The position numbers and the translations under genes are program-made. The notes beneath the pieces are model-generated. The model made no database searches. It was not told the DNA's origin and saw only the letters and a list, made by a program, of their open reading frames with translations. Source: Lachnospiraceae bacterium (lineage in GTDB: Bacteria > Bacillota > Clostridia > Lachnospirales > Lachnospiraceae). Taken from it: a DNA stretch of 57,977 nucleotides. Where the stretch lies: contig JAILGE010000024.1 in assembly GCA_024697065.1 (NCBI GenBank), positions 1 to 57,977 on the forward strand, read 5' to 3'. This document shows positions 11,080-15,377 of this stretch, in pieces (the first letter of the stretch is position 1; every line of letters starts with the position of its first letter).

Positions 11080-11265
11080 ATGGATAATTTAACAACATTT
11101 TTTATGTCAGAGAATGGATTTTTATCTTATCTTGTTACATACATTGTTTTCATAGCTGCAATCCTTATAGCTTTCAGTATAGGATTTGCCCTCAGAAAGA
11201 ATAAGAATAAAAAGCTTGAAGTCGCAGGTGCTTCGGCTGCAGAGGATACAGAAGATAAAGACTGA
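11080..11265 (+). CDS. Small single-pass membrane protein
   Basis: This 61-residue protein has one long hydrophobic segment (about residues 15-38) followed by a Lys/Asn-rich stretch and an acidic tail ending AEDTEDKD. GGAGGGATGAT precedes the start. No family is recognised. A similar-sized protein with the same design lies at 24780; the two share layout but not obvious sequence. Confidence 0.6.
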   Translation: MDNLTTFFMSENGFLSYLVTYIVFIAAILIAFSIGFALRKNKNKKLEVAGASAAEDTEDKD

Positions 11266-11357
11266 CAGTCTATGATCGGATATTCAAAGACATCGGAAGG
11301 GTATTGGAAGGATATCATCGCCGGTGTCTTTTTTATTAATCAATATGGAGGAGTATC

Positions 11358-11789
11358 ATGAAAATTAAGATAAAGTATTTTACCGACAAGATAGAAAAGC
11401 TTAGATATATAGACGGAAAGTCCGATTGGATAGATCTTCGCGCGGCGGAAGATGTCTCACTCAAAAAAGGCGAATGGAAACTTATTCCTCTCGGGGTTGC
11501 TATGCAGCTCCCTGAAGGATATGAAGCCCATATAGTTCCCAGGAGTTCTACATATAAGAATTTCGGTATCATTCAGACCAATCACTGCGGCGTGGTGGAT
11601 GCATCGTACTGCGGTGATAACGATCAGTGGTTTATGCCTGTTCTTGCTGTAAGAGATACCGAGATACATATCAATGACCGTATCTGTCAGTTCAGGATCA
11701 TGGAGAACCAGCCTAAGATTGAATTCGAGGAATCCGACCATCTTGAGGGCAAAGATCGGGGCGGTTTCGGGTCCACCGGCAAGAACTAA
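11358..11789 (+). CDS. dut: dUTP diphosphatase (trimeric dUTPase family)
   Basis: The 143-residue protein hydrolyses dUTP to dUMP and pyrophosphate, keeping uracil out of DNA and feeding thymidylate synthesis. The five dUTPase motifs can be followed: [34 protein letters not shown] (Asp81), [11 protein letters not shown] and the C-terminal GRGGFGSTG-type loop ([10 protein letters not shown]). TATGGAGGAG precedes the start. It fits the nucleotide theme of the cytidine deaminase upstream, whose product is deoxyuridine. Confidence 0.93.
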
Positions 11790-11795
11790 CGCTTC

Positions 11796-11824
11796 TTGTA
11801 AAATCAGCTGTAAAAACTTATAAT
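11796..11824 (+). promoter_or_regulatory. Promoter for the Gly-Ser-Tyr repeat operon
   Basis: TTGTAA (11796-11801) and TATAAT (11819-11824) are separated by 17 bases. Transcription would start near 11831 and read into the gene at 11892 with a leader of about 60 bases. Confidence 0.55.
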
Positions 11825-11844
11825 AAGTCTGACTATGGCTAAAT

Positions 11845-11876
11845 GGGCTTAGTTTACGCTAACCCCTAATTTTTGT
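11845..11876 (+). terminator. Terminator-like hairpin inside the leader
   Basis: GGG-C-TTAG (11845-11852) pairs with CTAA-C-CCC (11859-11866) around TTTACG, followed by TAATTTTTG. It lies downstream of the promoter at 11796 and just before the gene at 11892, so it may act as an attenuator or weak terminator rather than ending dut transcription. Confidence 0.4.
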
Positions 11877-11891
11877 GCCGGAAAGAACTTT

Positions 11892-13004
11892 ATGGCAAAA
11901 AAATACGGCTGGCTGGACCGGGGGAAGAATGAGTCTGCAGACAGCTATGACAGCAGAATAAATCATCTTGCCGCATTTCATGCCGGATATGCGTTTTTTT
12001 CGCGTGATAATTATGATCCGGAATATGCGGCTTTTTCCGTGTATCTGTTATGGAACGGAGAGTTTAATTCCAAGGTTGAACCGGCTCTTCCTGACGGCGG
12101 TTTTATGATCCATTGCAGCCCGGATGTGGCAGAAAGATTTACATCCTACGAGATGGGGCTTCCTGTTTATGTAAAGATTTCTTCTTCGGAAGGAAAGATT
12201 TATGCGGAGAACATGACGGTTGCCGATCATAAGGATTTTTATGATCTTTATTTCAACGGATGTGAAGTGAAAAAGCCGGAGCTGTTGTATTATGCAAGAC
12301 GTCGTGATGCTGAAGACTGCTTTGAAGATGAGGATGACATATGTAGGGAGATTTGCCCCGGTGCTTTCATTATCCACGGCAGCTATCAGGCTGCAATTGG
12401 CAGCTATCAATCCGTAAAAGGCGGCTATAAGCCAGCAAACGGCAGCTATGGATCCGCAAACGGTAGCTATCAGTCCGTATATGGCAGTTATAATCTGATA
12501 AGTTTTGCGGGATCAGGAGTATCCGGCGGGAATAATCTGTTTCAGTTGGGAAGTTACCTCAGAGGCAGTTATTTATGGAATTTTAATAACAATAATAATA
12601 ACAATAATGCCGGCTCGGCAGGTTTCCTGAGTTCCTTTAATCTAAGATCGTTATGGTCAGGTTTTCTTTCGGGCAGCGGAAGTTTTATCCGGACACTTTT
12701 GGGTGGCAGTTATCAGGGGATTTCCGGCATTTATGGATCGGGATATAAGAACAGGGCTTTCGGTTACGGTTCCTATGGTTACGGTTCCTTCGGAGGCAGT
12801 TTTACGGATCCGCATGTTTACAGACCGGACTTATCGTTGCTGTCTGCGGGAAGAGATAATGACGGGGATGATAATCCTAACAAAGCAATGATAAATGGCA
12901 TCAGACCGGCAGAGAGCAATCTTGATTTCATTCCTAGATCAGGAAGGTTTATGCCGTCTTACAGGATGATAGCCGAGATGGGATACGGGCTGGATCTTAT
13001 ATGA
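11892..13004 (+). CDS. Gly-Ser-Tyr repeat protein of unknown function
   Basis: The 370-residue protein has three parts. Residues 1-160 form a folded-looking domain with many aromatic residues (YDPEYAAFSVYLLW) and Cys at 75, 124, 143, 151 and 155; I do not recognise it. Residues 163-204 are six imperfect 7-residue repeats beginning G(S/G)Y. Residues about 205-315 continue as Gly/Ser/Tyr/Asn-rich low-complexity sequence with a run of eight Asn and GYGSYGYGSFGGSF. The tail is Asp/Asn/Arg-rich and ends GYGLDLI. No signal peptide or membrane segment is seen. The stop overlaps the ATG of the glycosyltransferase-like gene, so the products are made together; the repeats may be its acceptor. Confidence 0.75.
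   Translation: MAKKYGWLDRGKNESADSYDSRINHLAAFHAGYAFFSRDNYDPEYAAFSVYLLWNGEFNSKVEPALPDGGFMIHCSPDVAERFTSYEMGLPVYVKISSSEGKIYAENMTVADHKDFYDLYFNGCEVKKPELLYYARRRDAEDCFEDEDDICREICPGAFIIHGSYQAAIGSYQSVKGGYKPANGSYGSANGSYQSVYGSYNLISFAGSGVSGGNNLFQLGSYLRGSYLWNFNNNNNNNNAGSAGFLSSFNLRSLWSGFLSGSGSFIRTLLGGSYQGISGIYGSGYKNRAFGYGSYGYGSFGGSFTDPHVYRPDLSLLSAGRDNDGDDNPNKAMINGIRPAESNLDFIPRSGRFMPSYRMIAEMGYGLDLI
12378..12503 (+). repeat. Six 21-bp in-frame tandem repeats (GSYxxxx)
   Basis: Six degenerate 21-base units starting GGCAGCTAT or a close variant encode GSYQAAI, GSYQSVK, GGYKPAN, GSYGSAN, GSYQSVY and GSYNLIS. A trinucleotide AAT/AAC run (about 12583-12608) further downstream encodes poly-Asn. Both are length-variable types of sequence. 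Confidence 0.85.
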
Positions 13005-13855
13005 ACGGCTTTTATTCTCTCTGGACAGCACCATATTTTAAAGGTAATCCTGATGGTGAATATTCTCTCCGCGATCATGAACTGTTAATGCTTTTGCTTT
13101 CTGTAGCGGCTTATCAGAAGTATAACGGTTCCACAGCCATGTATGCCGATGGTCCGGCAGCGAAATATATACTTGATACGGGCATAGAAGGGATTTTTAA
13201 GAACGGATTAAAGGATCTTAATGTTTCACCCGATATCGATCCGAAGGTTTACTGGGCCGCAGGAAAGCTTGAAGCTTTGAAAGCGGAAAAAGCTCCTTCT
13301 GTTATGATCGACACTGACCTTATCATTTGGAAGAATCTGGATACTGTTTTCGAGGATCCTGCGACGGATATTGCCGTGATACACAGGGAAGAGATCAATC
13401 CGAAGATCTATCCGGGTCCCTGTTCATTTGAGATGAAGAAAGGTTACAGCTTTCCGTCATCATGGGATTTTAGTATAGAACCGGCCAATACTGCGCTTTT
13501 ATATATAAAGGATGAGGGATTCAAGGTGCGTTACGTCGATGCGGCGCTTGAATTCATGAAGATGAGTAAGAAGACGGATGATACGCTCTGCCATATGGTT
13601 TTTGCCGAGCAACGTATACTTCCCATGTGTGCCGCGTCTGAAGGAAAAAACATTTTTGCTTTTTGCAACCGGATAGAGGAACTCAGGGAACAGAGGCTTT
13701 TTACGCATATGTGGGGCCACAAGAATGTACTCAAATTCAACGGCGAAGAGAGGCACGCTTATTGTCTGAAGATGATGATGCGGTTGAAGAATGAATTTCC
13801 GGAAATGTACGAAGTTGCGGAAAAGATCAGTATTCTTAAGCTTTACAGAAAGTAA
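13001..13855 (+). CDS. Glycosyltransferase-like protein, DUF6734 type
   Basis: The 284-residue protein begins FYSLWTAPYFKG and carries LLMLLLSVAAYQKY, TAMYADGPAA, YWAAGKLEAL and MIDTDLIIWKNL. The last contains a DxD metal site (Asp104-Thr-Asp106) as in GT-A glycosyltransferases. It then has EPANTALLYI and a C-terminal THMWGHK. This layout matches DUF6734-type proteins as I remember them. It starts inside the stop codon of the repeat protein (4-base overlap), so it very likely acts with that protein, for example by adding sugar to its Ser or Tyr residues. That role is inference. There is no signal peptide, so it acts in the cytoplasm. Confidence 0.65.
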   Translation: MNGFYSLWTAPYFKGNPDGEYSLRDHELLMLLLSVAAYQKYNGSTAMYADGPAAKYILDTGIEGIFKNGLKDLNVSPDIDPKVYWAAGKLEALKAEKAPSVMIDTDLIIWKNLDTVFEDPATDIAVIHREEINPKIYPGPCSFEMKKGYSFPSSWDFSIEPANTALLYIKDEGFKVRYVDAALEFMKMSKKTDDTLCHMVFAEQRILPMCAASEGKNIFAFCNRIEELREQRLFTHMWGHKNVLKFNGEERHAYCLKMMMRLKNEFPEMYEVAEKISILKLYRK

Positions 13856-13922
13856 TGTTATCTAAGATGATGATCCGGAAATAAATGATTTTTAGGAAAT
13901 AAGAATTAAGGAGATATAAATT

Positions 13923-15377
13923 ATGAAGATCAGAACAAGATTTGCACCCAGTCCTACAGGAAGAATGCATGTGGGAAATCTGCGCACGGCATTGTATTCC
14001 TATCTCATTGCCAAGCATGAAGGCGGAGACTTCATCCTTCGTATCGAGGATACGGACCAGGTAAGAGAGATGGAAGGTGCTGTTGATATCATCAACAGAA
14101 CTCTCGAAAAGACAGGGCTTAAGCATGATGAAGGGCCGGATAAGGACGGCGGTGTAGGCCCTTATGTCCAGAGTGAGAGACAGGCTTCCGGTCTTTATAT
14201 GGAATATGCGAAGAAGCTTATTGAAAAGGGGGAGGCTTATTACTGCTTCTGTGATAAAGAAAGACTTGAGACTTTGAAGACTTCCATGGGTGAGGACGGA
14301 AAAGAGATCACCATTTATGATAAGCATTGTCTTTCTCTTACCAAAGAAGAGGTTCAGGCTAATCTCGATGCAGGAAAGCCTTTTGTTATCAGACAGAATA
14401 ATCCCAGAGAGGGTCAGACAACCTTCCATGATGAGATCTATGGAGATATCTCCGTTGATAATTCCGAGCTGGATGACATGATACTTATCAAATCGGATGG
14501 ATTCCCCACATATAATTTTGCAAATGTAGTTGATGACCATCTTATGGGGATCACTCATGTTGTAAGAGGAAATGAGTACTTAAGCTCTTCACCCAAATAC
14601 AACAGACTCTATGCTGCATTCGGTTGGGAACCGCCGATTTACGTTCATTGTCCTCTCATCACTGATGAGGATCACAAGAAGCTTTCCAAGAGAAGCGGAC
14701 ATTCATCTTTCGAGGATCTCTTGGAGCAGGGATTCCTTGCCGAGACTATCGTTAATTTCGTTGCCCTTCTCGGATGGTCTCCGGAAGGCGACAGGGAGAT
14801 CTTTTCACTTGATGAGCTGATAAAGGAATTTGATTTTAGACGTATCACCAAGTCACCCTCCGTATTCGACTATACCAAGCTTAAGTGGATGAACGGCGAA
14901 TATATCAAAGCCATGGATGACGAGACATTTATGAAGATGGCATCACCTTACTTTGATGAATATTTAAACCCGGGGCTCGACAGGGATAGGATCGGCGCAA
15001 TGGTTAAGACCAGGATCGAGATATTCCCTGATATAAAGGAACTGGTGGATTTCTTTAATGAGCTTCCTGAATATGATCCCGAGATGTACTGCCATAAAAA
15101 GATGAAGACTTCCAAAGAGAGTTCACTTGAAGTATTAAAGGAATTGCTTCCCATACTTGAAGCGCAGGATGATTACAGCAATGATGCACTTTATCAGACA
15201 CTTCAGGACTATGCTAAGGAACACGAGTACAAGAACGGATATGTCCTCTGGCCCGTTCGTACCGCTGTTTCCGGCAAGCAGATGACTCCTGCCGGAGCAA
15301 CCGAGATCATGGAGGTACTCGGAAAGGAAGAGAGCCTCTCCAGGATAAGGAGAGGAATTGAGCTTCTTGCCAACTAA
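13923..15377 (+). CDS. gltX: Glutamyl-tRNA synthetase
   Basis: This 484-residue class I synthetase charges tRNA-Glu, and often tRNA-Gln in Firmicutes before amidation. The HIGH-type motif is [11 protein letters not shown] at the N-terminus, and the KMSKS-type motif is KLSKR (residues 253-257). [20 protein letters not shown] and [12 protein letters not shown] are typical of bacterial GluRS. AAGGAGATATAAATT gives a good ribosome binding site. Length fits the family. It appears as a single gene behind a 67-base gap. Confidence 0.97.

Follow-up and report, generated by a model that had tools for sequence, protein, structure and literature searches.

What does a Gly/Ser/Tyr-rich repeat protein do when the end of its gene overlaps the start of a gene for an enzyme of a family to which Pfam gives no function? 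The window, i.e. the whole stretch of 57,977 nucleotides analysed here, comes from a Lachnospiraceae genome of 2.69 Mb in 44 contigs. It contains a gene for a 370-aa tagged Gly/Ser-rich protein, hereafter the partner (11892..13004, + strand), and a gene for a 284-aa GT-A glycosyltransferase-like enzyme of DUF6734 (PF20508; 13001..13855, + strand). The two ORFs are joined by a 4-nt overlap (ATGA), exactly as an earlier sequence-only reading of this DNA had placed them. Of 98 genomes searched, 32 contain relatives of the partner (the window genome is one of them, all belong to its genus, and the closest by the repeat protein is G027) and 34 contain DUF6734, above the Pfam cut-off in 31, so these are not chance ORFs. 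We propose, with a probability of roughly 55%, that the pair is a two-component, tag-guided glycosylation module made of DUF6734 and a tagged Ser/Gly-rich acceptor.

The flanking genes can be read as a dUTPase gene upstream and a gltX gene downstream, judging from their sequences, and the gltX cluster lies close to 16 of 24 related loci. A private promoter and a leader hairpin had been claimed for the pair, and neither is convincing. The promoter-like site TTGTAA-17-TATAAT (11796..11824, + strand) has 10 of 12 consensus matches, but such sites are not enriched in 11200-14000 (5 observed vs. 6.6 expected from shuffles), and the fold at 11826-11900 is not significant (z = -0.75). The pair has no match in PADLOC and PHROGs, so anti-phage defence is not indicated. 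PHROGs gave no match for three viral proteins. The window enzyme matched nothing among phage or plasmid proteins, nor did a viral DUF6734 enzyme among phage proteins. No dedicated protease or exporter was recognised adjoining the window pair.

The enzyme matches PF20508 at 2e-10 and 41 bits (cut-off 27) over model positions 6-281 of 286 and contains D104-x-D106, which agrees with its earlier description as a DxD-containing DUF6734 protein. Its AlphaFold2 model (pLDDT 94.2, pTM 0.91; 26 alignment rows) has 167 Foldseek matches in PDB at E<=0.001, and the best 50 of these are all GT-A enzymes or sugar nucleotidyltransferases, including UGGT catalytic domains (best E 5.6e-06), glycogenin-1 and -2, LgtC, YeGT, Skp1 galactosyltransferase and RmlA-type nucleotidyltransferases. 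The GT-A fold expected for this protein is thus a high-confidence prediction. In the same best 50 of 167 matches, the TM-score is 0.31-0.46 of the query, the identity 9-14% and the rmsd 7.5-18.5 A; these modest TM-scores and large rmsd values count against the tag-guided glycosylation reading. On the predicted structure, the GT-A class of the enzyme is clear from Foldseek, while its nearest family is not.

Residues of catalytic type are conserved. In an alignment of 48 DUF6734 sequences, of which 43 belong to the branch under study and the rest to viruses (two), an eCIS locus (one) and Bacteroidota plasmids (two), W85, K89, D104, D106, Y137, E203, Q204 and H236 are invariant. They include both Asp of the DxD motif D104-T-D106 (13310..13318, + strand) and the first two residues of E203-Q204-R205 (13607..13615, + strand), where R205 is kept in 43 of 48. 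H236 belongs to T235-H236-M-W-G-H-K241 (13703..13723, + strand; K241 in 45 of 48), a candidate metal/diphosphate motif whose role we assume from GT8 enzymes. The order of DxD, Asn, Gln and a late His-x-x-Gly-x-Lys-like motif presumably resembles that of GT8 enzymes, among which we count glycogenin and LgtC, with DxD and the late His motif in an order similar to DUF6734. By sequence, the window enzyme does not belong to the GT8/glycogenin family: at E<=1, Pfam returned no match but DUF6734, and the PDB sequence searches returned no GT8 chain and nothing meaningful. Sequence searches of Pfam and PDB tie DUF6734 to no characterised enzyme, which counts against the glycosylation reading as well, and a full-text search of open-licence PMC papers found no paper on DUF6734 or GYGLDLI.

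The partner starts with an alpha/beta domain in the AF2 model, called type A here (residues 5-122; 11904..12257, + strand), which is predicted with moderate confidence (block-mean pLDDT 62-84 at residues 11-120), while pLDDT is below 50 at residues 123-354 and 364-370. Composition and a block-mean pLDDT of 21-32 define a Gly/Ser-rich low-complexity linker (residues 159-315; 12366..12836, + strand) with 18% Ser, 20% Gly and 10% Tyr. Tandem Repeats Finder places six 7-residue G[SG]Yxxxx units at about 12376..12495 (+ strand; period 21, 5.8 copies, 70% matches). The six GSYxxxx repeats reported before are therefore correct in number and unit length, but five read GSY and one reads GGY; the further Gly/Ser/Tyr/Asn-rich stretch 3' of them is present as described. 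No signal peptide is evident by eye. For the partner, Pfam gave no match above the cut-off, and NCBIfam, PADLOC and PHROGs gave none within the limits applied; the single NCBIfam match is one to low complexity and lies far below the cut-off. Pfam LbR_Ice_bind (0.019), Nucleoporin_FG (0.028) and Pentapeptide_2 (0.01) also fell below the cut-off and look compositional. The fold search of the partner against PDB gave no match at E<=0.001, and SdgB in its top row, at E 0.19, is not evidence.

The partner layout is the same across the genus, with different repeat units such as GSY, GSF, GSYR and pentads like GSFNL (L053); GSQ units are found in the partners of L024 and L025. In four loci (L046 and L067 of G012, L064 of G011 and L069 of G015) the assemblies break within the repeat region, so in these three genomes the partner is cut or lies on another contig than the enzyme.

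The main feature of the partner, a nearly invariant C-terminal GYGLDLI, was missed by the sequence-only reading, which had recognised the pair itself correctly. This tag forms the last seven residues (12981..13001, + strand), and the pattern match at 12981-13004 is the only one in the window genome. In alignment A3, the mean identity of the 17 other rows to the window is 52% for residues 1-135, 25% for residues 136-330, 26% for residues 331-363 and 97% for the last seven. Because identity reaches 97% in the tag against 25% in the linker, GYGLDLI is the fixed feature of the partner. The partner model places the tag (residues 364-370) with a pLDDT below 50, and this counts against the tag-guided reading.

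GYG[LI]x[LI]I, at the C-terminus or at most 3 residues from it, is found in 58 of 59 DUF6734-positive genomes, a count that omits G890 with its 40-residue, below-cut-off match; the exception is G408, with DUF6734 in an eCIS locus and no tag. This constant co-occurrence supports the view that the two genes form a dedicated system, and DUF6734 homologues are thus usually found with a partner. In the window's genus, 33 of 35 genomes contain DUF6734 at E<=0.001 (window's counted; the two negative genomes are 72% and 81% complete), and all 33 contain a tagged partner, with one Trp after the tag in five (G007, G011, G015, G018 and G022). The contig search gave 27 loci, several of them the same records as these and other genomes of the study. 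The partner is upstream of the enzyme in 26, and in the 27th (L020) just 234 bases precede the enzyme, which encode the tagged end of a partner. The class search of 391 genomes gave 20 DUF6734 matches, window's counted. For the 19 others, a tagged gene lies directly upstream in 14, and in the remaining five the two genes are on different contigs, where the genome-wide scan found the tag at the end of a Ser/Gly-rich ORF in every case (cut by the contig start in G836). DUF6734 is present in 5 of 24 genomes of the family of G084, all in genus g51 and all paired, and in the phylum search the partner of G476 ends in GYGLELIDAR. The terminal Ile is not forced by the ATGA overlap, because it is also seen in tags whose genes do not overlap the enzyme gene or are not adjacent to it.

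As a control, the DNA pattern G[YF]G-hydrophobic-x-hydrophobic-I-stop was scanned in 30 DUF6734-positive genomes and 60 negative genomes. The positives were eight from the 33 in the window's genus, the complete class set of 19, and G084, G408 and G476. The negatives were hand-chosen from genomes with no DUF6734 match in the 98-genome, phylum and class searches; they include 50 of the 62 negatives of G035-G097, of which 12, mostly less complete, were left out. The loose pattern was found in 28 of 30 positives vs. 10 of 60 negatives, and the reversed pattern in 3 of 30 and 14 of 60, so the 10 loose matches in negatives look like chance. Seven of these 10 were re-found in frames of 7 to 68 codons, and the other three have the stop position read as W or an inner stop. 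After translation, the strict tag GYG[LI][DNEH][LI]I-stop is present in 28 of 30 positives vs. none of 60 negatives. By genus, the numbers are 11 of 13 vs. 0 of 57 (Fisher p about 4e-11, the genera being not fully independent). We fixed the strict form once the positives had been inspected, a point against the tag-guided reading, and adjacent tags were known beforehand in many of the 30; it is the negatives and the five genomes with non-adjacent genes that make the scan informative. One negative, G071, matches the broader GYG[LI]x[LIR]I-stop with GYGLQII, in a frame open for 7 codons.

The tag follows Ser/Gly-rich sequence on five types of N-domain (A, B, C, D and F), with no profile similarity among them (hhalign probability <2%), while types A and A2 are related (99.7%). 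The hhalign alignments are small (4 to 14 rows, type F being a single sequence), so distant kinship of the N-domains could be missed. Partner types largely track enzyme clades in the enzyme tree (FastTree, without support test). Partners were tabulated in 43 cases: 34 were recognised because their gene adjoins that of the enzyme, 5 small peptides because the enzyme locus contains the tag, and 4 came from scanning whole genomes for the tag. Across these 43, the tag is G, Y, G, L/I, D/N/E/H/G, L/R/I, I. As a separate observation, several type D partners (L096, L098, L104, L153 and L155) and one type A partner (L051) contain a short YEYEYEYE-like run within the Ser-rich linker or close to it.

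Which residue might carry a sugar can be judged from the sequence before the tag. In the last 60 residues or fewer before it, all 43 partners have Ser and 37 have a non-tag Tyr, and the linkers hold 10-28% Ser and 0-15% Tyr (34 of 35 rows; L051 left out). The Tyr of the repeats is Phe or Gln in other partners, or the linker is plain Gly-Ser, and with these counts the earlier suggestion that repeat Tyr accepts the sugar is weakened. Between the window and L002, the closest pair, the linker keeps 20 of 28 Ser and 9 of 16 Tyr, numbers too few to decide. Two observations count against the tag-guided module with Ser as the acceptor: long partners have no Ser at a fixed distance from the tag, the nearest being 2 to 42 residues away, and no Ser is better conserved than the Tyr of the tag.

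Some partners have 23 or 60 aa, compared with 370 aa in the window. In all five positive g51 genomes, a 23-codon ORF, taken from the first in-frame ATG, ends 12-14 bases before DUF6734, and a Shine-Dalgarno-like AAGGAG is visible in G084. All five 23-aa peptides have the tag and a Ser at position -11, and four have PTSN or SG just before the tag.

In the module proposed here, DUF6734 would be a metal-dependent GT-A glycosyltransferase and the product of the partner gene, protein or short peptide, its dedicated acceptor, which would contain a flexible Ser/Gly-rich sequence followed at the C-terminus by GYG[LI]x[LIR]I. This tag would be the signal on which the enzyme docks, and the sugar would go to Ser upstream of it, often at Gly-Ser sites, Tyr being less likely. 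The long repeats of the window partner would supply many sites, and the N-terminal domain would be a variable passenger. The genomes show the pairing, the conserved tag and the catalytic-type residues, and the GT-A fold is predicted, whereas docking, sugar transfer, the identity of the sugar, Ser as acceptor and the purpose of a glycoprotein are what we infer here. The system looks like an undescribed tag-guided protein glycosylation in many gut and rumen clostridia. A bolder version, which we put forward tentatively and at somewhat less than even odds, is that in Clostridia and relatives the portable seven-residue tag GYG[LI]x[LIR]I alone recruits DUF6734 to glycosylate the flexible Ser-rich sequence preceding it. 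Five or more unrelated proteins would then have acquired the tag, and a free 23-residue peptide would be its minimal carrier, making it a general "glycosylate me" signal in bacteria. An uncharacterised enzyme family hereby gains a testable substrate and recognition signal, and one enzyme becomes linked to the low-complexity Ser/Gly-rich proteins that gut and rumen clostridia encode and that could easily pass for mere repeats. If the proposal is true, a short portable C-terminal glycosylation tag with natural substrates of 23 residues would allow an easy in vitro test and be of use in glycoprotein engineering.

The Tyr of GYG could itself be the acceptor, with the Ser/Gly stretch as a mere spacer and a glycan primer as the product. 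Tyr is the acceptor in glycogenin, which is among the Foldseek matches listed; moreover, Tyr is present in all 43 tabulated tags, and four of the five 23-aa peptides hold no other Tyr. We regard this as unlikely, since viral relatives have GIG in place of GYG and the Ser/Gly enrichment on unrelated proteins would be left without a reason. The Ser/Gly-rich stretch would be equally without a reason if the partner were an adaptor or activator of DUF6734 and not its substrate, docking by the tag while its variable N-domains guide DUF6734 towards different targets. One tag on several unrelated N-domains and non-adjacent genes in five genomes would suit such an adaptor, but the 23-aa partners have no domain for steering, and we consider it improbable. 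Partners of 23 and 60 aa also argue against a low-complexity protein that forms condensates or a scaffold, with the enzyme incidental. Its Gly/Ser/Tyr-rich sequence and low AF2 confidence would fit that picture, but the partner co-occurs with the enzyme and the tag is kept while the linker is not, so we find it very hard to credit; the condensate-like role suggested earlier is unsupported because some partners are just 23 aa long.

Another possibility is a four-gene export system, in which enzyme, tagged protein and a following ABC transporter secrete a glycoprotein. An ABC ATPase directly follows DUF6734 in 17 of 27 loci (L004, L006, L007 and L010-L023), and in 16 of these a permease with ABC_transp_aux comes next. 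However, no ATPase or permease match was found in 10 of 27 loci, which include L027 with almost no DNA after the enzyme and five loci (L002, L003, L005, L008 and L009) whose partners are close to the window's. In the window, no ABC ATPase follows DUF6734, and the window genome gave no match to the relatives' permease in a search run without a positive control, so ABC export does not appear to be general, and we rate this system as quite unlikely.

The tag-guided module can be compared with known systems. The window enzyme is a member of PF20508, and what is new here is that one branch of the family is tied to a C-terminal tag. Its relation to glycogenin, LgtC and the UGGT catalytic domain is one of likeness in Foldseek (best 50 of 167 matches), at 9-14% identity and TM 0.31-0.46 with no sequence-profile match. 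The acceptor proposed for DUF6734, the tagged partner, is encoded by a separate gene; in glycogenin the acceptor Tyr is in the same polypeptide. Dedicated glycosyltransferases for repeated Ser sites are reported for serine-rich repeat (SRR) glycoproteins with their Gtf enzymes and SD-repeat proteins with SdgA/SdgB. These are surface adhesins, whereas the window partner has no evident signal peptide by eye, and the window system differs by its C-terminal tag and by partners down to 23 aa. By eye, no Gtf or accessory Sec genes were seen among the 14 most widespread neighbour clusters listed (24 loci). Glycocins and other glycosylated RiPPs are alike in having a small gene-encoded peptide beside its own glycosyltransferase. 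The 23-aa ORF before the enzyme in all five g51 positives, and the RiPP-like context on one Bacteroidota plasmid, would suit a short RiPP precursor, but the window partner has 370 aa. Unlike for glycocins, no protease or exporter was recognised, the partners read have few or no Cys, and it is their C-terminus that is conserved. The enzymes of glycocins are of the SunS type (GT2).

Distant relatives of the enzyme occur in other settings. The G408 protein, the highest-scoring DUF6734 of 398 genomes (204 bits), is encoded in an eCIS locus (L083:3014-12351) with Baseplate_J, Tail_P2_I and eCIS_core. It lies between a 723-aa protein, which looks tail-fibre-like by eye with no Pfam match, and the eCIS_core protein, and its lack of a tag counts against the tag-guided reading. 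Emticicia and Hymenobacter plasmids encode proteins of 543 and 517 aa in which DUF6734 forms the N-terminal part and is followed by a C-terminal extension; a PqqD/RRE-like end suspected on them by eye has no Pfam support. The stretches examined on both Bacteroidota plasmids (L109:1402-12141 and L110:23-14846) contain VKOR-family and TlpA-family genes and no GYG tag. The Emticicia plasmid also encodes a lantibiotic dehydratase and a 63-aa Cys/Ser-rich peptide, and the Hymenobacter plasmid an HlyD-family gene, gene contents which suggest RiPP-like settings; the dehydratase, VKOR-type protein and small peptide near the Emticicia enzyme speak in favour of the tag-guided module. In two viral contigs (L107 and L108), the gene before the enzyme ends in AGIGLNLL or GGGIGIIFLG, and the N-terminal part of the enzyme itself holds AGIGVNLI or AGIGIKLI, a tag-like AGIG[VI]xLI that perhaps serves self-modification.
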